Source: Amycolatopsis sp. NBC_01480
Lineage (GTDB): Bacteria > Actinomycetota > Actinomycetes > Mycobacteriales > Pseudonocardiaceae
Assembly (NCBI RefSeq): GCF_036227205.1
Contig: NZ_CP109442.1
Span: forward strand, 1,798,001-1,862,000
DNA: 64,000 bases
Direction: 5' to 3'
The notes under the pieces were generated by a model that had not been told where the DNA came from, searched no databases, and saw nothing but the letters and a program-made list of their open reading frames with translations. Of this stretch, positions 4,210-27,827 are shown one piece after another. Position numbers and translations under genes: made by a program. How positions within the stretch are numbered: the first letter of the stretch is position 1; each line of letters starts with the position of its first letter.

Positions 4210-4566
4210 TCACGACGCCTTCTTGACCGCCTTCACGGACCGGCCGAGCGACCCCGGCGCCGCGCTCCGGCTCTCCGGACCCGGCGCAGCGCGCCCGGCC
4301 GGCTGGCACCCGGCCCAGCACCGGCCGCCCGACACCCGGTCCCGCGCCCCGCGGCCCGGTGCTCCACTGCCCGCCACCCGAGCCCGGCCCAGCTTCCGAC
4401 CGGCCAGTGCCAACCTCCCGGCGGCCACCCAGCCTCGGTGCGGCAGCCGAGGTTCTCGGCTGCCGCCGCCTGGACCCAGCGCGGCGCCCCCGGGCTGTCC
4501 GAGACCTGGCTCAGTACCCGGCCGCCCAGAGCCCGACCGTTCGTCTCCCGGACCCGGCGCCCAGGG
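4210..4566 (-). pseudogene. In-frame tail behind the amber stop of the second WXG100 gene
   Basis: Downstream of the TAG at 4569-4567 the same frame stays open for 118 codons and ends in TGA at 4212-4210. The translated tail is rich in Gly, Pro, Arg and Ala and ends in KAVKKAS. Just before the TAG the protein reads GRPGTEPGLG; 24 codons later the same ten residues recur, followed by CAG (Gln) at 4497-4495 where the first copy has TAG. This is the pattern expected if a CAG became TAG by one transition, cutting off a once-longer C-terminus. Read-through, or chance in GC-rich DNA, are the alternatives. Confidence 0.45.
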
Positions 4567-4884
4567 CTATCCGAGACCTGGCTCAGTACCCGGCCGCCCG
4601 GTTTCCGACCTGGTGCCCGGACCCGCGCCGGGGCCGGAGCTGTCCGCGATCTCCTCGAACGCGTCCCGCGCCCGGTCCAGGCACTCCGGCATCCGGGCCA
4701 GTGCCTCGGTCCACTCCTGTTTCGCCGCGTTGTAGCGCGCCCGGGCCTCCGCCGGCCACGCGGCCAGGTCCTGTTCCACAGTGGACTCCAGCTCCGCCAT
4801 CACGGCGCGGAGGCCGCCGGTGGTGGCGCCCATCCGGTCCAGGATGTCGTCGGCGTGGCTGAAGTCGGAACCGCCGCCCGTCAT
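4567..4884 (-). CDS. WXG100-family protein, second of pair
   Basis: A small alpha-helical protein of 105 residues that would form a helical hairpin and a heterodimer with its neighbour for type VII (ESX) secretion. The turn reads AAWPAEARARY, with Trp-Pro-Ala in place of Trp-x-Gly, so the signature is degenerate in this partner. Helical regions are about residues 10-40 and 50-80; residues 82-105 are a Gly/Pro/Thr tail. The start ATG at 4884 lies two bases after the stop of the upstream WXG100 gene, implying translational coupling. The stop is an amber codon with an open frame behind it. No ESX core or ATPase gene is in the window. Confidence 0.75.
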   Translation of the reverse strand: MTGGGSDFSHADDILDRMGATTGGLRAVMAELESTVEQDLAAWPAEARARYNAAKQEWTEALARMPECLDRARDAFEEIADSSGPGAGPGTRSETGRPGTEPGLG

Positions 4885-4886
4885 GT

Positions 4887-5138
4887 TCAGGTTCCGCTCG
4901 GGCCGCCGGTTCGGTTTCCGGCCGTGGACCTCGCGCCGGCGGTGGCCGCCATCAGGTCCTCCAAGCGGCCGACGATCACGTCGAACTGTTGTTCCCATTC
5001 GTTCATGGCCTGGCCGAAGCGGACGGAGGCCTCGCCCCGCCAAGACGTCTGCAAAACGGCCATCTCGGTGTTGACCTGGCGCAAGTGCGCGTTGGCGGAT
5101 TCGATCGCCCGGGCGAACTGCCCCGCTGTGTCCTGCAT
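4887..5138 (-). CDS. WXG100-family protein, first of pair
   Basis: A protein of 83 residues with the canonical Trp-Arg-Gly turn in LQTSWRGEASVRF at about residue 35, flanked by two amphipathic helices. This is the standard ESAT-6/CFP-10 layout for type VII secretion. The ATG at 5138 follows GAGGAGAGGC; an in-frame ATG five codons upstream has no comparable ribosome site. The tail (TAGARSTAGNRTGGPSGT) is Gly/Thr/Ser-rich. It is the leading gene of the two-gene unit. The large SARP gene is divergent from it, across the 328-bp region 5139-5466. Confidence 0.8.
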   Translation of the reverse strand: MQDTAGQFARAIESANAHLRQVNTEMAVLQTSWRGEASVRFGQAMNEWEQQFDVIVGRLEDLMAATAGARSTAGNRTGGPSGT

Positions 5139-5466
5139 GCCTCTCCTCGCCACATCCCCAGCCCGCCTGCGATCGGCAGGCGAGGCACCACCGAGGGTGA
5201 TCCAACGACCGGAGCCGGCGGTACCGAACCCCCTGGTGCTATGCCCGAATTTCGGTGATCATTGCCTGCCGGGCCCCCGGCCGGGGCCTGGGTGAGTTTT
5301 CCTGCCGTTCGCCGCTGGGCCGGATGGCTGAAACGCGCGGGCCCGACAATCGGGAAACCGGACCGGGCGAGCAACCCTCCCCAGGGCCGCCGCGTCACCG
5401 TTTCGGGCGTAAGCTCACCACTGGCATCCGGCGTGTGACGATCCGTCAGCGCGTGAAGGGAGACCC
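5139..5466. promoter_or_regulatory. Divergent intergenic region between the WXG100 pair and the first SARP gene
   Basis: These 328 bases carry no convincing gene. TAAGCT at 5410-5415 is a plausible -10 box for the SARP gene, whose ribosome site AAGGGAG (5456-5462) precedes the ATG at 5467. I did not find a good -35 partner or a clear inverted repeat. Confidence 0.35.
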
Positions 5467-8400
5467 ATGTCGGCAGCGGACGGCGCGGGGCCAGGCTTCA
5501 CCGCGCCGAGGGTCCAGCTGCTCGGCCCGGTAAAGGCCTGGCGAGGGGACACCGAGCTCGACCTCGGCTCCGCCCACCGGCGCACGGTCTTCGCCGTGCT
5601 GGCCATGTCGCCGAACCGCACGGTGTCGCGCGAGGAGCTGATCGACGCGGTCTGGGGCGACGCTCCCCCGGCCAGCGCCCAGGGCAGCATCTACACCTAC
5701 ATCTCCGGCCTGCGCCGGGTGCTCGAGCCCGGCCGCGCCCGGGGCACCGGCCCGCAGCTGCTCGCGTCCATCGGCTCCGGCTACTCGCTGTGCGTGGAGT
5801 CCGAGACCATCGACGTGCACCACTTCGAGGCCCTGCGCGAAAAAGCCCATCGCCACCTCACCGCCGACGAGCTGCGGCCCGCCCGCCAGGTGCTCGACGA
5901 GGCGCTCGGGCTGTGGCACGGCACCCCGCTGTCCGGGCTGCCCGGGCCGTTCGCCGACGCGCAGCGCGCCCGCCTCGAAGAGCTGCGGCTGGCGACCGTC
6001 GAACGGCGGGCGCTGGCGGTCCTGAACGACGGCGGTCACGGCGAGCTGGTCGCCGGGCTGACCGCGCTCACCCAGGAGCACCCGTTCCGGGAGACGCTGC
6101 GCGGCCTGCTGATGCGCGCGCTGGACGCCGGCGACCGCCGCACCGAGGCGCTCGCCGTCTACACCGACGTGCGGGACCGGCTGATCGAGGCGTCCGGCAC
6201 CGAGCCCGGCCCGGCACTGCGCGAGCTGTACGAGCGCATCCGCGACGGCGAGTCCCGGCCCGCCGCCCCGCCGTCCACGCCCCGTCCCTCGCCTGCGCCC
6301 GCCCGCGTGCCGCGGTTCCCGGTGCCGGTCCTGCCCCCGCGCCCGGACGTGTTCTTCGACCGGACCGAAGAGACGCTGCTGGTGCGCGAGGCCGTCGCCG
6401 GGCTGCCGAGCGGGCTCGGCCGGTCGGTCTGGGTCGAGGGCGAGCCGGGCATCGGGAAGACCGCGCTGCTGGCCGAAACCCTGGCCATGGCCCAGGAAGC
6501 CGGCTGCAAGCCGCTGTTCGCCGCGGCCGACGCGCTGGACCAGCGGTTCGCGCTGCGCCCGTTGCTCGACGCGCTGGGCGTGCACCCTCGGGCGTCGGAC
6601 CTGCGGCGCGCCGAGCTGGCCGTGGCGCTGGCGGAGAACCCGGACCAGGACCCGGTCGAGGGCCTGCTCGGGCTGGTCCGCGAGCTGTGCGCGGACGAGC
6701 CGCTGGTGCTCGTGGTCGACGATCTCCAGTGGGCCGACGAAACCACGCTGCGCGTCTGGCGCTACCTGAGCCGCGAGACGCGACGGCTGCCGCTGCTGCT
6801 GATCGGCGCGTGCCGGCCGATCCCGCGGCCCGCCGCGCTGGACAGCCTGCGCGCCGAGCTTTCCGCCGACGGCGCTGACGTGCTCGCGCTCGGCCCGCTG
6901 CCCGAGAGCGCCATCCGCGACCTCTCGGCCGACCTCACCGGCGCCCCGCCAGGCCAGGTGCTGCGGATCCTGATCTCCTACGCCGCCGGAAACCCGCGCT
7001 ACGCCAAGGAAACCGTCGAGACGCTGCTGTCGAACTCGATGATCCTGCTGGACGGCGCGCAGGCCATCGTGGACGGCAACAGCTGCCGCTCCATCCCGTC
7101 CCCGCTGGGCTCGCGCGTGACGCTCTACCTCAGCTTCCTGTCCAGCGGCACACGCGACGTGCTGCGCTGGGCGGCGTTGCTGGGTAAGGAGTTCTCACTC
7201 GCCGACATCGCGATCGCCACCGAGCGCCAGGCGACGGCGCTGGTCGGCGCCGTCGAAGAGGCGCTCGCGGCCGGAGTGCTCGTCGAGTCCGACGACCGCC
7301 TGAAGTTCCGGCATCCGCTGCTGCGCCGGGTGCTCTGCGAAAAGACGCCGGCCGCGATGCGCGTCGCGCTGCACCGCCAGCTGGCCGAGGCGTTCCACGG
7401 CGCGGGCGCGTCGCCGGAGCGGGTGGCCGAGCAGCTCGCCGCGGCGCCGGTGCAGATCGACTCTTGGGTGACCGCCTGGCTGCTCGAGCACATCGGCTCG
7501 GTCGCCACCGGCTCGCCGCGGATGGCGGTGGACCTGCTGCGGCACGTGGTCACGCAGGGCACGCTCCCGGCCGAAGCACGCGAGCCGCTCACCGCCACCC
7601 TGGCGCGGCTGCTGTTCTGGCTCGGCCGCGAACCCGAGGCGGAGGCGCGGTCCGTGGTCGCGCGCACCGAGGACAGCAGGCAGGCCGCGGAAATGCGCTG
7701 GATCCTGGCCTACATCTACTACCGGCGCGGCGAGTTCGCCGAGGCCGCGGAAGAGGTCCGGCGGACGCTGGCCGACCCGAACGTGCCGGAGATGTGGCGC
7801 GGCCGCCACGAAACCCTGCGCGTGACGATCGAGCGGCTGGCCGCCGACGAGACGTCCCAGCCGGACCTGTCCGAGCTGGGTGTCCTCGACGGACTCGACG
7901 ACGCCGCCGAGCCGCTGGACACCGCCCGCCGCCTGGCCGCGATCCGCGCCGTGCCCGGCGAAATGCACCTGGCCGGCGCCGTGCACTACTACTGGCGCGG
8001 GCGCTGGCCCGAGGCGCTGGCCGAGCTGGACACGGTGATCAAGGGCGGCGCGGAGACGGCGTCGTACGTGCTGCGCAGCCCGGGCTCGGCACTGCTGGTG
8101 CACGGCGTCGGCGCGTTGATCGCCGGGCACCGCAACGAGCCGGAGGAGGCGCGCGCCCACCTGGACGCGGCTTCCCGGCAGCACTGGCCCAACGACCTGG
8201 AGCCCAACGGCGGCGACTACCTGCTGGCGGCCGAGGCCCAGCTGGCGGAGCTGGAAGGACGGCCGGAGGCGGCATTGGCGGCGCTCTCGCCGTTGCTGGA
8301 CCCCGGTTACCCGCCGTCGGCGCGGCAGCAGTGGCTGCCGGACCTGGCACGGCTGGCCGTGCAGCTCGGCGATCAACGGGCGCACCAGGCGCTGCGGATG

Positions 8401-20329: not shown

Positions 20330-21619
20330 TCAGGCGGGGGCGACCAGGAGCGTGACGGTGCGGTTGGCGTCCGGGTCGCCGTCCGGGTGGGCGGCAGTGG
20401 ACTGGTCGGCGCTGCCCATCGCGAACGCCGTCAGCGGGAGGCCGCTCACGGTCGCCAGCACGCGGGCCGCCGACGCCGCCCGCGCGAGGGCGACCGTCGA
20501 GCCGCCGGTGGCGGGACCACCCGCGACTGTGACACCGTGGCCCAACACTGTCACGCGGACTGACTGTCCTTTGAGGACTTCGCCCCAGTGCTGGAGCGCC
20601 CGGCGTCCCTCGGCACTCGGCGACGTCGCGTTCGGAGCGAACAGGCCGGCGTCGAAGGACACTGAGACGTCCGTTTCGCCGGGCTTCGTGTGGACGCCCG
20701 GCGCGGCCAACGCGGTGGCGAGCGCGGCGAGGCGCTCGTGACGGGCGGCGGCCGCGGCGGCGTCACGGGACTTCGCGGCGTTCAGCCGGTCCAGCTCGGC
20801 CTGCAAGCTGGACGCGGCCGGTGCAGCACCGGCGGCCGACCCCGAGACGACCGCCGGCGCCGCCCCGAACGGCACCGTCACCACCACCACACCTCCCGCC
20901 ACCAGGATCACGGCCGCCCCCGCCGCCAGCGCCCGCCACGGCACCTGCCGCCGACGCCCCCACCCCGACCGCACCCGCGCCACCCGCCGCCGCCCCGCCA
21001 TGGCCGACGGTTCACCAGGCACCAGCTCCAGCACCCGCGCCCAGGCCTCATCGGCCGCGTCGAGGTTCCCGGCTTGGGCGTAGACCCGGGCGAGGAGGTC
21101 CAGGCGGGCTGGTTCACCGCCGCCGGGCCACGGAGTAATGCCACTGGCACCGCCGCTCGGCCGCGAGTTGCCGCCACTGTCCAGCGCCACCTCGGCATCT
21201 CCGAGCACCGAGGTGGTCGCGGTGTCCCCCTCAGGACCACTGCGACCGCCTCGCCCGGCACCACCGGAGTTGCCTCCCCCCGCGCGGCCGCTGCCGCCGC
21301 CGGAGCCATCCCCCGCCGACCCACCGCCACTCCGCCCAGCACCGCCGGCGCGGTCCGCCGCTGAGCTACCACCGCCACTCCGCCCGGCACCGCCGGAGCC
21401 ATCCCCAACCGACCCACCGCGGCCGAATCGCCCGGCAGCGCCAGAATCGTCCCCCGCCGAGCCGCCGTGGCAGCCCCGCGCCAGGCCGCCGCCACCACCA
21501 GCACCGCCGCCGGATTGCTCCAGCAACCGCACCGCACCGTCGAAATCCCCGCCCCGCGCAGCTTCAGCCGCCTCGGCGAGGGTCAGTTCCCCGCCGAGCG
21601 TCTCCAGTGACCCGGTCAT
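20330..21619 (-). CDS. TPR-like/OmpA-like membrane protein, last gene of Hsp70 operon
   Basis: A protein of 429 residues. Residues 12-36 are a TPR-like helix (AEAARGGDFDGAVRLLEQ). Residues 37-168 are a Gly/Ser/Ala-rich insert with a 16-residue repeat (GGAGRSGGGS at about 76 and 92). Residues 170-215 continue the TPR-like helices (ARVYAQAGNLDAADEAWARVLEL). One membrane helix lies at about 229-250, then a short coiled coil and an OmpA-like domain (SFDAGLFAP at 321-329, ending NRTVTLLVAPA). The insert seems to have expanded in a loop between helical repeats. The ATG overlaps the Hsp70 stop by four bases (ATGA). The C-terminal domain may bind the cell wall; function is unknown. Confidence 0.7.
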   Translation of the reverse strand: MTGSLETLGGELTLAEAAEAARGGDFDGAVRLLEQSGGGAGGGGGLARGCHGGSAGDDSGAAGRFGRGGSVGDGSGGAGRSGGGSSAADRAGGAGRSGGGSAGDGSGGGSGRAGGGNSGGAGRGGRSGPEGDTATTSVLGDAEVALDSGGNSRPSGGASGITPWPGGGEPARLDLLARVYAQAGNLDAADEAWARVLELVPGEPSAMAGRRRVARVRSGWGRRRQVPWRALAAGAAVILVAGGVVVVTVPFGAAPAVVSGSAAGAAPAASSLQAELDRLNAAKSRDAAAAAARHERLAALATALAAPGVHTKPGETDVSVSFDAGLFAPNATSPSAEGRRALQHWGEVLKGQSVRVTVLGHGVTVAGGPATGGSTVALARAASAARVLATVSGLPLTAFAMGSADQSTAAHPDGDPDANRTVTLLVAPA

Positions 21620-24111
21620 TTCCGCTCCTGCTGGATGCCGCTGTTCGGGGTCCCGCGGCCGTCGTCCGGCAACAGCGCGCGCAGGCGGCGGTTCAGGCTC
21701 GGCAGCGCAGGCCAGTTGCTCGTCGCGATGAGGCGTTCACCTTCGCGGACCAGTTCGCGGGCCTGGGCCGGGGAGGACATCCGCTCCTGCGACGCGCGCA
21801 GGGCGTTGAAGATCTCGACGTCGAGTGAGCCGTCGCGGCGCAGGAGGCGGACCTGGAGGTCCAGTGCCTGCTCGGAAAGCTGCTCGGCGGCGGGCACGTC
21901 GCGCGTGTTCTGCAGGTCGGCGTAACCGCGTTCGATGTCCGCCAGCTCCTTGCGGTCCTCCTCGGCGCCGACGCGGTCGACCAGGTCACGGCAGTGCTCG
22001 ATCTGGTCGCGCACCCGCTCCAGCACCTCCGGGACGCGCAGCTCCTCCTCGATGTCGTCCAGCTCGGCCTGGACGCCGCGGATCCGGGCCTCCGCGGAGA
22101 CGGCCGCGCTCTCGTCCGTGGCCGCGGACGCCACTTCCTCACGAACCGACGGCACCACGCCCTGGTCGTCGAGGCGCATCAGCAGGCCGCGGGCCCGGTC
22201 CGAGCGCGTCACCTCGACCTGCGTGCGCAGCTGTTCGTGGCGCGCCTCCACCTCGTTCATCAGGCGGCGCAGCGTCGGCGGGTCGGGCACGGTGCGGGTG
22301 TTCAGGTCGACCGCGGCGTCGAACTGCTCGTTCAGCAGCGGCACCTCCGCGACCACCGAGACCAGCCGGGATTCGTTCATCTCGAAGAACATCTGCACCT
22401 CGCTGCCGCGCGGCAGGTCGCGGCGCAGGTCCTCGGCCCGGATCTCGATCAGGCCGACGGCGAGGTTGCGCTCGCCGCGCTTGCGCTCGCCCTCGACGAT
22501 CGGGATCCGGATCGCCGCGCCGGCATCACTGCGGCGCAACGTGACCGTGGTGTGGAACGGCTGATTGGCCTTCGCCGGCAGCGTGGTGTTCTTCAGCAGC
22601 ATCGGGGTGAACGTGCCGTCGGCCTCGGTCAGGCCCACGGAGTTGACCACCGTCTGCCCGGTCATCTCGTTGACCCACTGGGTGATCGTGATCGAGTCCG
22701 GGCTGACCGGCACCCGCGCGCCGGAGGCGTCCATCAGCTCCACGTCGAACCGGTTGCGCGCCAGATCGGCCAGCAGCACGTCGACGGTGAACGTGCCGTC
22801 GACGGCCAGCGCGACCTCCGCGGTCCGGTACGAGGGGCGGCGGCCCGGGTCGTTCAGCGCGATCCGGAACCGGCTCCAGTCGGCGCCGCCCGGTGTCGAG
22901 CAGCGGCCGGAGACCGGCACGGAGGTCAGGCTCGTGGTCGGCGGATAGGACAGCTCCAGGGTGAACTCGCCGCGTTTCGGCGCGACGGTGGCGCGCGGCA
23001 ACGCGACGGTGCCGGCGTAGACCGCGGCACCGCGCGCGACCACCGTGCTCGGGTCCTGGCTGTGGTCCAGCCGGATGCCTAGCCCTTCGGTGGGATCCGC
23101 GAGCAGCTCGCGCAGGCTCGGCGACAGCGTCGGACCGCCGACCAGCAGCAGCCGGTCGATGTCCGACGGCCCCAGGTTCGCCTTCGCCAGCGCCTCCCGG
23201 CACAGCTCGATCGCCCGCCGGTAGAGCGGCCAGGCCAGCTGCTCGACGTCCTCACGCCGCAGGGTGTACTCGAACATGTCCTGCTGCCCGTCACCGCGGT
23301 CGAGGTCCACCATCACCTGCGCCTGGCCGGTCTGCGAAAGCGCGATCTTGCCCGCCTCCGCCCCGGTGCGCAGGAACGCGAAGTTGCGCCGCCATTGCGG
23401 GTTGTCCCGCCGGAAGTCCTTCAGCCCCAGCTCTTTCGCCGCGGCCGGGGCGAGCAGCCGGTCGACGATCGCGGCGTCGATGTTCTTGCCGCCGAGGCTC
23501 GTGTCGCCCGCGTGGTCCAGCACCTTCAGCTCGCCGTCGACGGTGCTGACCACGGCCGAGTCGAACGTGCCGCCGCCGAGGTCGAACACCATCCAGTACG
23601 CGCTGCTGGTCTCGTTCTGGAAGCCGTACGCGAAGGCCGCCGCGGTCGGCTCCTGCACCAGCGGGCACGGCGCGGTGAAGCCGGCCAGCTTCGCGGCCTC
23701 GCTGGTGGCGTTGGTCTGGTTGAGCAGGAAGGCCGCGGGCACGGTGATCACCGCGGCCGCGGGCGCCTCGCCCCCGAACCGGCGGGCGGCGTCGCCGCGC
23801 AGGGTCTTGAGCACCTCGGCCGAAAGCTCCACCGGGCTCATCGAGACCGCGGACCGGGCGAACCGGCGCTGCACGTCCGCGAAGCCCATGGCCTGCTTGA
23901 ACTCGATCTGCACGTTCTCCGGGTCGCGCTCGAGACGGTCGCGGGCGGCGGCGCCGACCTGGATCACCCCCGCCTTCGGGATCCACACCGCCGACGGCGT
24001 GTAGTCGCCCTGGGCGTTGCTCTTGATCACCGTGACACCGCCGCCGGCCAGCACCGCCAGCGCGCTGTTGGTCGTGCCGAGGTCGATGCCGAAGTCAATG
24101 GTGTCGCGCAT
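21616..24111 (-). CDS. Non-canonical Hsp70-family chaperone with inserted beta domain
   Basis: A protein of 831 residues, about 200 longer than DnaK. Residues 1-370 are the actin-like ATPase domain: DLGTTNSA (10-17), VFDLGGGTFD (175-184) and LLLVGGPTLSPSLREL (321-336). The usual hydrophobic Asp-Leu-rich linker is missing. Residues about 380-485 look like an extra beta-sandwich domain, and a recognisable substrate-binding beta domain follows (LLKNTTLPAK 505-514, IVEGERKRG 538-546). Residues 605-825 are helical and coiled-coil. It is translationally coupled to GrpE-like and TPR/OmpA-like genes and lies downstream of a J-like membrane protein, so it is probably a dedicated membrane-associated chaperone rather than the housekeeping DnaK. 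Confidence 0.85.
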   Translation of the reverse strand: MRDTIDFGIDLGTTNSALAVLAGGGVTVIKSNAQGDYTPSAVWIPKAGVIQVGAAARDRLERDPENVQIEFKQAMGFADVQRRFARSAVSMSPVELSAEVLKTLRGDAARRFGGEAPAAAVITVPAAFLLNQTNATSEAAKLAGFTAPCPLVQEPTAAAFAYGFQNETSSAYWMVFDLGGGTFDSAVVSTVDGELKVLDHAGDTSLGGKNIDAAIVDRLLAPAAAKELGLKDFRRDNPQWRRNFAFLRTGAEAGKIALSQTGQAQVMVDLDRGDGQQDMFEYTLRREDVEQLAWPLYRRAIELCREALAKANLGPSDIDRLLLVGGPTLSPSLRELLADPTEGLGIRLDHSQDPSTVVARGAAVYAGTVALPRATVAPKRGEFTLELSYPPTTSLTSVPVSGRCSTPGGADWSRFRIALNDPGRRPSYRTAEVALAVDGTFTVDVLLADLARNRFDVELMDASGARVPVSPDSITITQWVNEMTGQTVVNSVGLTEADGTFTPMLLKNTTLPAKANQPFHTTVTLRRSDAGAAIRIPIVEGERKRGERNLAVGLIEIRAEDLRRDLPRGSEVQMFFEMNESRLVSVVAEVPLLNEQFDAAVDLNTRTVPDPPTLRRLMNEVEARHEQLRTQVEVTRSDRARGLLMRLDDQGVVPSVREEVASAATDESAAVSAEARIRGVQAELDDIEEELRVPEVLERVRDQIEHCRDLVDRVGAEEDRKELADIERGYADLQNTRDVPAAEQLSEQALDLQVRLLRRDGSLDVEIFNALRASQERMSSPAQARELVREGERLIATSNWPALPSLNRRLRALLPDDGRGTPNSGIQQERK

Positions 24112-24640
24112 TCCTGTCCTCCGTCTGGCCGGGGGCGACCGGGCATCCCACGATGACCTGCCCCATCTGGATCCGGCGGTCGGCCAGGTACACCGACGGC
24201 CGCACGGTCTCCACCACCCGCTCGGCGGTGAAGCCGGGTTCGTCTTGGAACAACAGGACTTCCAGCGCCAGGCCGGAGTCGAAGGCCATCCCGTCGTGGT
24301 CCTGGACGGCCACTCCGGCGGCTTCGAGCGCCTCCTGGCTCATCGTGAGCAGCCGGCCGGCCTGGCGCGCGGCCCGGTCGTCCGCGCCGTCGAGCCGTTT
24401 GCGGGCCCGCCACAACGCCGTCGCGGCGGTAGCCAGGTCCGATTCGGACAGTGCCGGGCCCCCGGTGTCCGCCGGCCGCCGCTCGGCGGCCGCGAGCGCG
24501 GCCGAGACCTGGGTGACCAGTTCCCGCAGCCGTGCTCGTTCCTCCTTGCCCCACAACGGTTCCTCGATGCGGAACTCCCGGTGCTGCCGGCGTTGCCGGG
24601 CTTCGACGCGCCACCGCGCGTACGTTCCTCGAACAGTCAA
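24095..24640 (-). CDS. GrpE-like nucleotide-exchange protein
   Basis: A protein of 181 residues. The N-terminal two thirds are helical and Arg/Ala/Glu-rich. The C-terminal part (AERVVETVRPSVYLADRRIQ, then GQVIVGCPV) resembles the small beta domain of GrpE that contacts the Hsp70 ATPase domain. The TTG start at 24640 follows GGGAGACGGCT, which overlaps the stop of the J-like gene. The 3' end overlaps the Hsp70 gene by 17 bases. Position and C-terminal pattern support an exchange factor; the long GrpE coiled-coil is shortened, so I call it GrpE-like only. Confidence 0.6.
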   Translation of the reverse strand: MTVRGTYARWRVEARQRRQHREFRIEEPLWGKEERARLRELVTQVSAALAAAERRPADTGGPALSESDLATAATALWRARKRLDGADDRAARQAGRLLTMSQEALEAAGVAVQDHDGMAFDSGLALEVLLFQDEPGFTAERVVETVRPSVYLADRRIQMGQVIVGCPVAPGQTEDRNARHH

Positions 24641-24650
24641 AGCCGTCTCC

Positions 24651-26171
24651 CTAGTCTCGTCCGGCCAGCGAAGACGGCACCGCGATCAGCAGCACCACCG
24701 CGGTGGACACGGTCAGCCAGCCCGCGATCGCGGTCCCGTTCGCGTGCGCCACCCAGAAGCCGGTGGCCACAGCCGCCTGGGTGAGGAACAGCAACGGCAT
24801 CCGGGCCGGGCCGGCGTAGGCGTTGCCGGTCGCGGCGACACTGCACAGCAGCCCGAGCGTGCCGATCACCAGGCACGGCAGCAGCGGCGAGGCCAGCAGC
24901 GTGGACAGGAACACCATGCCGAGCGCGACGTGCAACAGAGCGAAGAACGTCGCCGGGCCTTTGGCCGGCGGCCGCGCCGGCACCGGCCCGCCCTGCCGCA
25001 GCCGGCGCATCGTGGCGATCATGCGCCGGGCCTGCTCCTGGTCCCCCGGCCTTCGCGAATGGGCGAGGATCTGCTCCAGCGCCTGCTCGGCCTCGGCGTA
25101 GCGGCGCAGCCGGGTCAGGGTGGTGACCCGGCTCCACAGCTGGCCGACGTCGGTCGGAGGGAGCGGCGCCGTGGTCGCGGACTGCTCGTTGCGCGTGATG
25201 GTCGCGAGCGTCTCGGAGTCGGTGCTCAGCCGGCGCGCGAGCGCGAACACCTCACGCGCGAGCTGGCGGGACGAGGCCGGCACTTCCGAGAGGGCGACGC
25301 CGATGTTGTTCGCCGCGATCGCCGCCGTCTCCCGCAATCGGCCGGCGCGCCGGTAATCCTCGAACGGCATCACGCGCTCGAGCCGGTCCAGCATCGGGGC
25401 CAGCTCGTTGAGCGCGCGTTCCGCGGCCTCTCTCGCGCTACCGTTGTCGATGAGCTTTCGCAGCTCCTTCAACAAGTCCTCACCGCGGCTGAAGGTGTCG
25501 CCGGCGGCTTCGGTGCGCGCGGCGGTCTCGGTGGCCTTGTCGACGCCCCACATCGAGAGGAAGCCGAGCAGCCGGTCGGGCTCCGGCGAGGTGGCGGCCA
25601 GCGAGACGAGCGGGGCCACCAGCGCGGCCGGCAGCGCGGCGCGCAGACCATCCACTGTGGACTCGTCGAGCCGCCGGTCGCCGCTGGTGCCCACCCGGTG
25701 GCGCAGGTGCTGCCAGAACGCCTCGCTGCGCTGGGTGAACGCCCAGTTGCGCGCGGCGTCGTTCCACAGCGGCATCGGGTGGTCCTCGGTCCGTTCGGCC
25801 TCGGCGTCCAGCGCCGCGGCGTGGGCCTTCACCGCGGCGTCGTGCCGGTCGTGCAGCTGAGGCGGGCAGTCGCAGTCCTCGGGTGCGCCCCAGTGGCCGA
25901 ACAGCTCGTCGACGAGCCGGTGCTCGGTGTTGCCCAGCTCGTCGAACGCCGAGCGGACCTGGTCCGGCGTCGCGTCTTCGGGGACGCCCGGCGGGCGCGC
26001 GCCGACTTCGAGCGCGCCCAGCACCCGCAGCCGCCGCTCGCGGACGGCCCGGCGGGTGGCCGTGGCGGGCAGGCCGGTGATCCGGAACGGGTTGCGGCGG
26101 TACAGCTCCGGCGTCGCGACGGCCTTCAGCCGTGTCGCGGCCGTCCGGCTCCGGCCCTCGTTCGCACCCAT
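24651..26171 (-). CDS. J-domain-like membrane protein, first gene of Hsp70 operon
   Basis: A protein of 506 residues. The N-terminus (NPFRITGLPATATRRAV, then FDELGNTEHRLVDELF) follows the helix pattern of a J-domain-like module, but the essential His-Pro-Asp tripeptide is not visible. The middle is helical, with a Cys pair at CDCPP and TPR-like segments (LRRYAEAEQALEQIL). The last hundred residues hold about four membrane helices and end SSLAGRD. It probably anchors the Hsp70 system in the membrane. Start ATG 26171. The 105-bp gap to the divergent NlpC gene would hold both promoters. It is possible that this is not a true J protein. Confidence 0.65.
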   Translation of the reverse strand: MGANEGRSRTAATRLKAVATPELYRRNPFRITGLPATATRRAVRERRLRVLGALEVGARPPGVPEDATPDQVRSAFDELGNTEHRLVDELFGHWGAPEDCDCPPQLHDRHDAAVKAHAAALDAEAERTEDHPMPLWNDAARNWAFTQRSEAFWQHLRHRVGTSGDRRLDESTVDGLRAALPAALVAPLVSLAATSPEPDRLLGFLSMWGVDKATETAARTEAAGDTFSRGEDLLKELRKLIDNGSAREAAERALNELAPMLDRLERVMPFEDYRRAGRLRETAAIAANNIGVALSEVPASSRQLAREVFALARRLSTDSETLATITRNEQSATTAPLPPTDVGQLWSRVTTLTRLRRYAEAEQALEQILAHSRRPGDQEQARRMIATMRRLRQGGPVPARPPAKGPATFFALLHVALGMVFLSTLLASPLLPCLVIGTLGLLCSVAATGNAYAGPARMPLLFLTQAAVATGFWVAHANGTAIAGWLTVSTAVVLLIAVPSSLAGRD

Positions 26172-26276
26172 GCCGCAGAAGTTAAGGCGGGACGGCCGGG
26201 ACCGGTCCCGGCTCCTGGGTGACCGGGGTCACTGAAAGTCGGTGGAACCTCGGGCGGCCGAGCGCGTGTACCCGGC

Positions 26277-27296
26277 ATGAACAGCAGAAAGCACGGGACC
26301 CGGCGCTGGGGCTGGCCGCTGGTCCTGGCCGTGGTCGTCGCGGGAGCGGTGGGGACCACGGCGTCGGCCGCTCCGGAGCCGACTCCCCTCGAGAAGTACC
26401 GCGAACTCTCGCAGCAGGCCGAGAAGCTCAGCCAGGACCTGCTCGGCGCGCAGGCCGACCTCGACGCCAAGCAGGCCGACCTCGCCCGCGCCGGGCAGGA
26501 CCTCGCGGCGGCGAAGGACGCCGGCACGAAGGCGGCGGGCGAGCAGCAGCGGCACCAGGTCGACGTGGACCGGTTCGCCGGCGCCGCCTTCACCGACAAC
26601 TCCCAGCTGAACCGGCTTTCCGCGCTGCTGAGCGGCGGATCCGTCACCGACTACCTGCAGCGATCGTCCGCGCTGGACGTGGTGGCCGCGAACCAGCAGG
26701 CGGCGCTCGACACCCTGGCCGACGCCACCCACGCGGCGAACGACGCCACCGCCAAGGCCGCCGACGCCGAGCACCGCGCCCAGGCCGCCCGCGACGCCGC
26801 GGCCAAGCTGAAGTCCGACATCCAGGCGCGGCAGCGCTCCCTGGACGACCAGATGCACCAGCTCGAGGCCGCCGCCGGCAACCTGACCTCCGCCGACCGC
26901 AAGGCGCAGCGCGACGAGGGCGGCGCCCCGCCGGACGTCCGCGCGCCCGCGGGAGCCGCGCAGGCCGCCGTCGACGCCGCGCTGAGCCGGCTGGGCAAGC
27001 CGTACCAGACGGGCGCGACCGGCCCCAACGCGTTCGACTGCTCCGGGCTGATGCTCTGGGCCTACGCCAAGGCCGGGGTGAGCCTGCCGCGCACCAGCCG
27101 GGCGCAGTCGACGTTCGGCACCGCGATCCCGCGCGATCAGCTCCAGCCCGGCGACCTGGTGTTCTACTATTCGCCGGTCTCCCACGTCGGGATGTACCTC
27201 GGCGACGGCAAGATGGTGCACGCGCCGGACACCGGGGACGTCGTGAAGATCTCCCCGCTGCTGCAGAGCCAGTACGCCGGGGCCCGCCGCCCGTAG
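26277..27296 (+). CDS. Secreted NlpC/P60 peptidoglycan hydrolase with coiled coil
   Basis: A protein of 339 residues. A signal peptide of about 32 residues ends at TTASAAP. Residues about 35-220 are coiled coil with many Ala, Gln and Asp, as in RipA/RipC-type hydrolases where the coil restrains the enzyme. Residues 228-339 are an NlpC/P60 domain with catalytic Cys in NAFDCSGL, His in SHVGMYLGDG and a third polar residue in MVHAPDTG. It likely cuts stem peptides during division or growth. No Shine-Dalgarno sequence precedes the ATG. It is separated by only 15 bp from the sigma factor gene. Confidence 0.85.
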   Translation: MNSRKHGTRRWGWPLVLAVVVAGAVGTTASAAPEPTPLEKYRELSQQAEKLSQDLLGAQADLDAKQADLARAGQDLAAAKDAGTKAAGEQQRHQVDVDRFAGAAFTDNSQLNRLSALLSGGSVTDYLQRSSALDVVAANQQAALDTLADATHAANDATAKAADAEHRAQAARDAAAKLKSDIQARQRSLDDQMHQLEAAAGNLTSADRKAQRDEGGAPPDVRAPAGAAQAAVDAALSRLGKPYQTGATGPNAFDCSGLMLWAYAKAGVSLPRTSRAQSTFGTAIPRDQLQPGDLVFYYSPVSHVGMYLGDGKMVHAPDTGDVVKISPLLQSQYAGARRP

Positions 27297-27311
27297 CCGA
27301 GGAAGCCACCG

Positions 27312-27827
27312 ATGCCCGTACCCGCCGTCACGGCCGACGAGGTGGTGACGGTGCTGCACGCCCAGTGGACCCCGCTGGTCCGGCTGGCGACGCTGCTGGT
27401 CGACGACCAAGAGGCCGCGCGCGACCTCGTCCAGGACTGTTACGAGGCCGTGCTGCGCCTGCGCCCGGAGGTCGGCGACGAGGACCACCTCGTCGCCTAC
27501 CTCCGGCGCGCGGTGGTCAACCGCGCGCGCTCGGCGCTGCGGCGGCGCGGCATCGTGCTGCGGTACCTGGCGAAGCTGCGCCCGCACTCCGCCCCGCCCG
27601 CCGACCGCGACCTGCTGACCGCCGAAGCCCACCGCGAGCTGCTCGGCGCGCTGGACCGCCTGCCGCCGCGCCAGCGCGAGGTGCTCGTGCTGCGGTACTA
27701 CTGCGAATTGGGGGAGGCCGAAATCGCCCGCACCCTGGGCATTCCGCCCGGCACCGTCAAGTCGACGGCCCACCGCGCGCTGGCCGCCCTCCGCCGCCGG
27801 ATGAAGGACGGGACGCATGAACTCTGA
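27312..27827 (+). CDS. ECF sigma factor, SigE family
   Basis: A protein of 171 residues containing sigma region 2 (LVRLATLLVDDQEAARDLVQ, about residues 23-42) and region 4 (LPPRQREVLVLRYYCELGEA, then PPGTVKSTAHRALAALRR). No extra C-terminal domain is present. The stop overlaps the next gene, a membrane protein, by 11 bp, the usual sigma/anti-sigma arrangement. Co-transcription with the upstream NlpC/P60 gene (15-bp gap) suggests a cell-envelope response; that is inference. The ribosome site is AGGAAG upstream of the ATG at 27312. Confidence 0.85.
   Translation: MPVPAVTADEVVTVLHAQWTPLVRLATLLVDDQEAARDLVQDCYEAVLRLRPEVGDEDHLVAYLRRAVVNRARSALRRRGIVLRYLAKLRPHSAPPADRDLLTAEAHRELLGALDRLPPRQREVLVLRYYCELGEAEIARTLGIPPGTVKSTAHRALAALRRRMKDGTHEL

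Follow-up and report, generated by a model that had tools for sequence, protein, structure and literature searches.

Can a bacterial Hsp70 system operate with a J protein that lacks the motif by which J proteins address their Hsp70? This question is raised by four minus-strand open reading frames (ORFs), here named J, G, H and O, which adjoin or overlap each other at positions 20330-26171 of a 64,000-nt stretch of Amycolatopsis sp. NBC_01480 DNA (contig NZ_CP109442.1, positions 1,798,001 to 1,862,000; below: the window). The genome that holds the window has 10.1 Mb. The His-Pro-Asp (HPD) motif of J proteins normally docks at the Hsp70 interdomain linker, and R167 of DnaK binds the HPD aspartate. 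To our knowledge, this HPD-R167 trigger is treated as universal. The J homologues found here are devoid of HPD, and the H homologues are devoid of the matching arginine. We propose, with a probability of roughly 0.6, that the four genes encode a self-contained membrane-tethered Hsp70 machine that was originally phospho-regulated and whose J-Hsp70 trigger has been rewired.

An earlier sequence-only reading had described four genes with spacings of +10 bp (J-G), -17 bp (G-H) and -4 bp (H-O), and their strand, positions and lengths were found as it gave them. The genes and their parts are:

24651..26171, minus strand: J, membrane protein of 506 aa with an HPD-less J-like domain at the N-terminus, TPR-like helical repeats and four predicted C-terminal membrane helices
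25902..26111, minus strand: J-like domain, approximately residues 21-90 of J (profile match and AlphaFold2 helices)
24663..24962, minus strand: predicted membrane helices of J, residues 404-503 (AlphaFold2, hydropathy)
24095..24640, minus strand: G, candidate GrpE-like nucleotide exchange factor of 181 aa (hhalign, Pfam)
24140..24337, minus strand: putative GrpE-type beta-wing of G, approximately residues 102-167 (profile match)
21616..24111, minus strand: H, Hsp70 of 831 aa with nucleotide-binding domain (NBD, residues 7-370), inserted beta domain, beta part of the substrate-binding domain (SBD-beta, approximately 485-605) and long helical C-terminus (611-811)
22672..22974, minus strand: inserted beta domain of H, approximately residues 380-480 (six predicted strands, span counts)
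20330..21619, minus strand: O, 429 aa, with Gly-rich N-terminal stretch, TPR hairpin, one membrane helix and OmpA-like domain
20873..20929, minus strand: predicted membrane helix of O, residues 231-249
20342..20680, minus strand: degenerate OmpA-like domain of O (PF00691 and alignment A5)
26172..26276, no strand: divergent intergenic stretch of 105 bp between J and the gene at 26277, putative promoter place of the operon

A coding bias by codon-position GC is visible in J, G, H and O, except for the initial, Gly-rich 480 nt of O. The ratios of nonsynonymous to synonymous substitutions compared to Amycolatopsis saalfeldensis (L008) amount to 0.52 for J, 0.31 for G, 0.18 for H and 0.38 for O, which suggests that all four genes are maintained.

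The J-like nature of J, claimed by the sequence-only reading, is borne out by two lines of evidence. The N-terminus matches the J-domain profile in hhalign with a probability of 93.5% (E 2.2e-7, 67 columns; controls <1%), and the AlphaFold2 model (mean predicted local distance difference test score 92.6) displays the four helices in order (27-31, 39-54, 68-79 and 81-89). Together, profile and model indicate a J-domain fold, in which the HPD position falls within the 55-67 loop. Neither HPD nor HPE is found there in any of 52 N-termini of alignment A3 (55 rows, of which three were too short and were dropped), in agreement with the earlier claim. By its motif, J lies therefore outside types I-III. 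It shares with HPD-less type IV proteins such as Pam16 the J fold without HPD. In contrast to the Pam16 type, J is the sole J gene that was found in linkage with its Hsp70 partner, which has lost the matching arginine. Four membrane-length helices are predicted at the C-terminus (404-424, 429-447, 456-476 and 483-503; AlphaFold2), as first described, and hydropathy scanning of the J sequence in the window detects three of them; 54 of 56 homologues have a predicted membrane helix beyond residue 200. The Septum_form family (PF13845) matches 12 of the 55 J homologues in A3, in L017 after the membrane helix. In the acidobacterium Edaphobacter (L063, 6532-8812), the J region is divided between two ORFs, and in the first of them a response-regulator receiver domain precedes the J-like part.

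H is an Hsp70 (PF00012, E 5e-72), and the catalytic residues D8, T11, K70, E171, D194, T199 and D201 are kept in 38 of 38 members. Behind the NBD, a second in-frame HSP70 stretch (E 4.6e-4) and the alignment with DnaK locate SBD-beta; the H model was superposed on ATP-bound BiP as far as residue 605. H scores 251.5 bits against the DnaK equivalog NCBIfam TIGR02350, whose cut-off is 822.55. At the place where other Hsp70s have the interdomain linker, between NBD and SBD, H contains approximately 105 extra residues: the span comprises 124-135 residues among the 44 H members listed versus 23-25 in DnaK and HscC, and the short hydrophobic linker of the Hsp70 superfamily is missing from H. Strands are predicted at residues 383-388, 397-405, 416-421, 440-446, 452-460 and 473-478, so that the insert might form a six-stranded beta domain which, at a guess, is Ig- or FNIII-like. 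Arginine occurs at the R167 position in 0 of 81 H members; in the window's H, this position is P150. The N170 position carries Gln in 79 of the 81, and at the Q378 position Phe, Tyr or Leu is found. The subdomain IIB loop (DnaK 284-300) measures 15-20 residues in 80 of 81 members (17 in DnaK, 11 in HscC), as expected if H uses a GrpE. Before these residues were counted, two short sequences (P0168 and P0181) were dropped from 45 distant Hsp70s; row own_L103, a wrong reading frame that yields a long branch in the Hsp70 tree, was disregarded. In this tree, H forms its own clade, and the placement of HscC, a long branch, is uncertain. Because HPD and R167 are lost jointly, the most economical reading is that J and H changed together and became insulated from DnaJ and DnaK. 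The genome encodes two further non-DnaK Hsp70s without R167 (L102 and L104). Behind the L104 gene come a 120-aa ORF and then two short genes whose products resemble WXG100 proteins by eye.

How stable is the gene set? A profile scan of genome contigs with the G alignment yielded 57 loci; start codons for the spacing counts were chosen by script. J-G-H are consecutive on one strand in 54 of them, and O follows H in 48. The conserved gene order in related genomes that had been set beforehand as a test was thus observed. The G-H distance is at most 25 bp in 54/54 loci, the commonest arrangement being an 8-bp overlap (33/54). The remaining three loci are L053 (J downstream), L055 (contig end) and L064 (25-residue match). 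O is missing in six loci, four of which (L024, L027, L039 and L049) stop less than 500 bp past H, while L015 and L063 do not. Hosts include Amycolatopsis, Saccharothrix, Lentzea, Actinoplanes, Plantactinospora, Micromonospora, Nonomuraea, Kribbella, Streptomyces and Actinomadura, plus one acidobacterium, Edaphobacter (L063). The set is patchily distributed: a G match was obtained in 18 of 80 genus, 19 of 150 family and 9 of 296 class genomes, in samples that overlap, include the own genome and contain some partial or stop-bearing matches. Among the 80 genus genomes, strong matches number 17 for J, 16 for G and 18 for O, and all three occur together in 16; H, which lies outside this joint count, occurs in the seven compared stretches that bear the operon and is missing from the three partial ones. 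Partial sets exist in three genus genomes, G324 with J alone, and G331 and G341 with O plus a piece of G. With the order kept in 54/57 loci, the gene overlaps and the joint presence and absence, four unrelated chance neighbours are so improbable that we regard this explanation as already refuted.

At the window's chromosomal site with the same flanks, the operon is present in G322 and G356 and absent from G362, G321 and G330. At this site, G362 retains 29 residues from the end of O (24.9 bits, weak). In G296, 43 residues from the start of J, with a stop, remain close to the esterase-like flank gene (21.0 bits, weak). Because of these remnants, loss of the operon in relatives is indicated, and a recent gain by insertion is not favoured, the low scores notwithstanding. 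In L181 (G331:C27, ~4334-5538) and L182 (G341:C1, ~5057-6231), two Amycolatopsis genomes, O is kept with one ORF ahead of it. The start of this ORF resembles G in its basic N-terminal motif, and its end resembles, by eye, the C-terminal tail of H; neither a GrpE wing nor an Hsp70 core nor J was detected in the two stretches.

G is the third component in question. Its profile matches the GrpE profile in hhalign with a probability of 80.6% (E 1.3e-5; controls 0.6-0.9%). PF01025 is the commonest Pfam match of G homologues (10/26 at E<=1, best 4.1e-4); the window's own G matches it weakly with 11.3 bits, below the Pfam cut-off. According to the profile, G would possess the C-terminal beta-wing of GrpE, and the GrpE-like assignment of the sequence-only reading stands for this part and by profile only. 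Outside the wing, a basic N-terminal motif (residues 16-28, R-Q-R-R-H-H-R-x-F-R-I type) is well conserved in alignment A1. A second wing-only GrpE match of 30 bits is located in the same genome at G000:C1:3149745-3149945 (L101), distant from all Hsp70 matches. Such wing-only matches are found in other genus members, too.

In O, a TPR hairpin and a single membrane helix are predicted together with a degenerate OmpA-like domain, whose match to PF00691 (E 0.0018) does not reach the cut-off of this family. The helix is predicted in 48 of 49 homologues, and by prediction the membrane anchoring originally assumed for both J and O is upheld. Because basic residues precede the O helix on its N-terminal side, the positive-inside rule argues for an N-in/C-out topology. 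In OmpA, an Asp and an Arg hold the diaminopimelate of peptidoglycan. In alignment A5, only 2 of 24 O homologues have the Asp, which belongs to the GH-T-D position, and 24 of 24 have the Arg. Since the Asp is so rare, docking of the OmpA-like end to peptidoglycan, as suggested in the sequence-only reading, is doubtful. The Gly-rich first third of the window's O (a long Gly/Ser-rich stretch, ~21155-21514) is wholly or almost wholly missing from 21 of the 23 other A5 rows; A. saalfeldensis O is also long (476 aa).

In relatives, the operon often has a further gene. A Ser/Thr kinase is encoded at most 200 bp ahead of J or G in 31 of the 57 loci; 12 of these kinase genes overlap G by 4 bp, and 27 kinases have a Trp-Arg-Arg-Gly tail. 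The counts were made with one hidden Markov model from eight seed rows, one of them in the wrong frame (L063); the true L063 kinase reaches 332 bits and belongs to PF00069, as do the five actinobacterial operon kinases scanned. In L060 and L063, the upstream kinase lies beyond the 200-bp cut and outside the 31, which include partial, odd-tailed or lower-scoring kinases in L031, L033 and L059. FHA and winged-helix proteins cluster in 6/57 loci (two scanned: PF00498), and FHA was also detected in L063 (PF00498) and L183 (tblastn). The Edaphobacter operon encodes kinase, receiver-J fusion, second ORF, G, H and FHA. Amycolatopsis holds both forms, the kinase-less one of the window and kinase-J-G-H-O (L183-L185, in L183 with FHA in front); L186 has the order J-FHA-kinase-G-H-O. 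As a Ser/Thr kinase gene resides in the operon in much of the family, the machine is probably phospho-regulated there.

From these data, the following scheme can be drawn. The machine would sit on the cytoplasmic side of the membrane. Held in the membrane by its C-terminal helices, J would offer its HPD-less J-like domain together with a TPR-like surface to H and stimulate it. H would bind and hydrolyse ATP and hold peptides via an ordinary SBD, and G would open the NBD for nucleotide exchange. O could link this presumed complex to the cell-wall side via its one membrane helix, and clients might be envelope proteins. The trigger would be rewired: J without HPD, H without the partner arginine, and a beta domain in place of the linker. 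In much of the family, the linked Ser/Thr kinase, in some cases with FHA, would phospho-regulate the machine. A more specific version, in which HPD-less J activates R167-less H through the inserted beta domain and linked kinase and FHA gate the cycle at the membrane, is tentative, and we would bet against it.

Several observations weigh against the proposed machine. As for J, the Pfam J model does not match it, and an own-genome scan at E<=1e-3 passes over the window's J. The J profile aligned with single sequences gives only 10% probability for DnaJ and 0.3% for DjlB and DjlC. Foldseek and VIA-align with the whole J model returned no J-domain chain in the rows shown; these searches are uninformative on the J domain because helical repeats filled them, the domain accounting for 70 of 505 residues in the model. 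The match of G covers the beta-wing only and leaves the long paired N-terminal helix of GrpE outside, and a PF01025 scan of the own genome at E<=1e-3 misses the window's G. In G377, one of the 16 genomes with J, G and O, the G match contains one TGA. Regarding regulation, a kinase is missing from the window's operon. Its genome yields 22 kinase matches, which are 27-37% identical to the L017 operon kinase versus 49-77% among the operon kinases compared, and no close operon-type kinase is among them. R167 loss proved not to be unique to the H family: five GAP1-N2-linked Hsp70s and two other own-genome Hsp70s also lack it (the weaker Hsp70-like matches L161 and the second one in L167, both in GAP1-N2 regions, are outside this test). 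Since other divergent Hsp70s have likewise lost this residue, loss of HPD partners may be its general cause. Finally, according to two articles, most HPD changes in other J proteins abolish stimulation (PMC13254874, PMC8215388), and for this reason J may not stimulate H.

This last point leads to an alternative that we consider unlikely, if the strongest of its kind: the J-like domain is a pseudo-J that, like Pam16, serves as tether or inhibitor, and ATP hydrolysis is driven by client binding or by an unlinked DnaJ. HPD is absent from all 52 J rows, and the effect of HPD changes as well as Pam16, an inhibitory pseudo-J, are described in the review literature (PMC13254874). However, an unlinked HPD-type DnaJ would be a poor activator of H because R167 is lost (0/81) and Q378 is replaced by Phe, Tyr or Leu. 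Furthermore, the same article cites a designed J domain by which Hsc70 is stimulated without HPD (PMC13254874). Section 7 of this 2026 review calls it enigmatic whether HPD-less J proteins are accidental or positively selected. An HPD-less J kept in at least two phyla beside an Hsp70 without the HPD-binding arginine offers a natural pair to address this issue.

To which known systems does the gene set compare? Hsp70/J/GrpE machines, the pairing of membrane-anchored J proteins with an Hsp70 (HscC-DjlB/DjlC) and Hsp70-GrpE-J sets (GAP1-N2) are already known, and the four-gene set differs from each of them by tested features. The housekeeping operon of the own genome (L105) likewise unites genes for Hsp70, a J-domain protein and GrpE with a MerR/HspR-like gene (HspR by eye). 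It is a separate locus, as the sequence-only reading had it, and differs in that no membrane parts were seen, DnaJ has HPD, and DnaK has R167 and a 23-residue linker span.

E. coli HscC with DjlB and DjlC also combines a diverged Hsp70 with tail-anchored J proteins of similar size (475-483 aa) and altered motif (HPE) in one neighbourhood. It is rather improbable, though, that the operon is its actinobacterial counterpart, a housekeeping chaperone for membrane proteins. HscC, the sole yardstick for its type, keeps R167 and N170; it is free of the insert, and its GrpE loop is short, a combination that H does not show. HscC is thought to work without GrpE (PMC8215388), and no GrpE, OmpA-like or kinase gene is present among the 16 features of the HscC-DjlBC stretch, unlike in the H family. 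In addition, H has its own clade apart from the long, unsurely placed HscC branch, and the J profile does not recognize DjlB or DjlC (0.3%).

GAP1-N2 GTPase-centric systems carry Hsp70, GrpE and DnaJ/TPR-FNIII proteins (Kaur et al., 2020, PMC7159879). They resemble the operon by a non-canonical actinobacterial Hsp70 with GrpE and a J/TPR protein, and the five Hsp70s checked have no R167. A conflict system for defence or self/non-self discrimination, in which Hsp70 is an NTP-driven switch, would accord with these ingredients shared by name, the patchy occurrence with remnants and partial sets, and the kinase and FHA partners. We deem it improbable, somewhat less so than an HscC counterpart. None of 14 GAP1-N2 regions contains a J or G of this family, the five Hsp70s form a separate clade (99/100), and the defining GAP1-N2 protein (PF20013) has no own-genome match at E<=1e-3. 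None of the four proteins has a PADLOC match at E<=1, and no effector-like gene was noticed among the part of the neighbour families looked at. In the titles and abstract openings of open-access literature, no description of the gene set was encountered. If the proposal of a tethered, rewired machine is true, bacteria possess an Hsp70 machine that is tethered to the membrane and equipped with a dedicated exchange factor, to which many species add a dedicated kinase.

As to transcription, the HspR-type HAIR operator, scanned for with the generally known motif, has 0 matches at <=3 mismatches across the whole window. Ahead of dnaK in L105, a HAIR-like site with two mismatches is present, which 29 of 200 shuffles equal. 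Adjoining the operon, the stretch 26277-27827 holds a divergent gene whose product looks by eye like a secreted NlpC/P60 protein, and a gene that looks by eye like one for a sigma factor. In G322 (L175), only short matches to the first of these flank genes and to the gene at 27817 are left.

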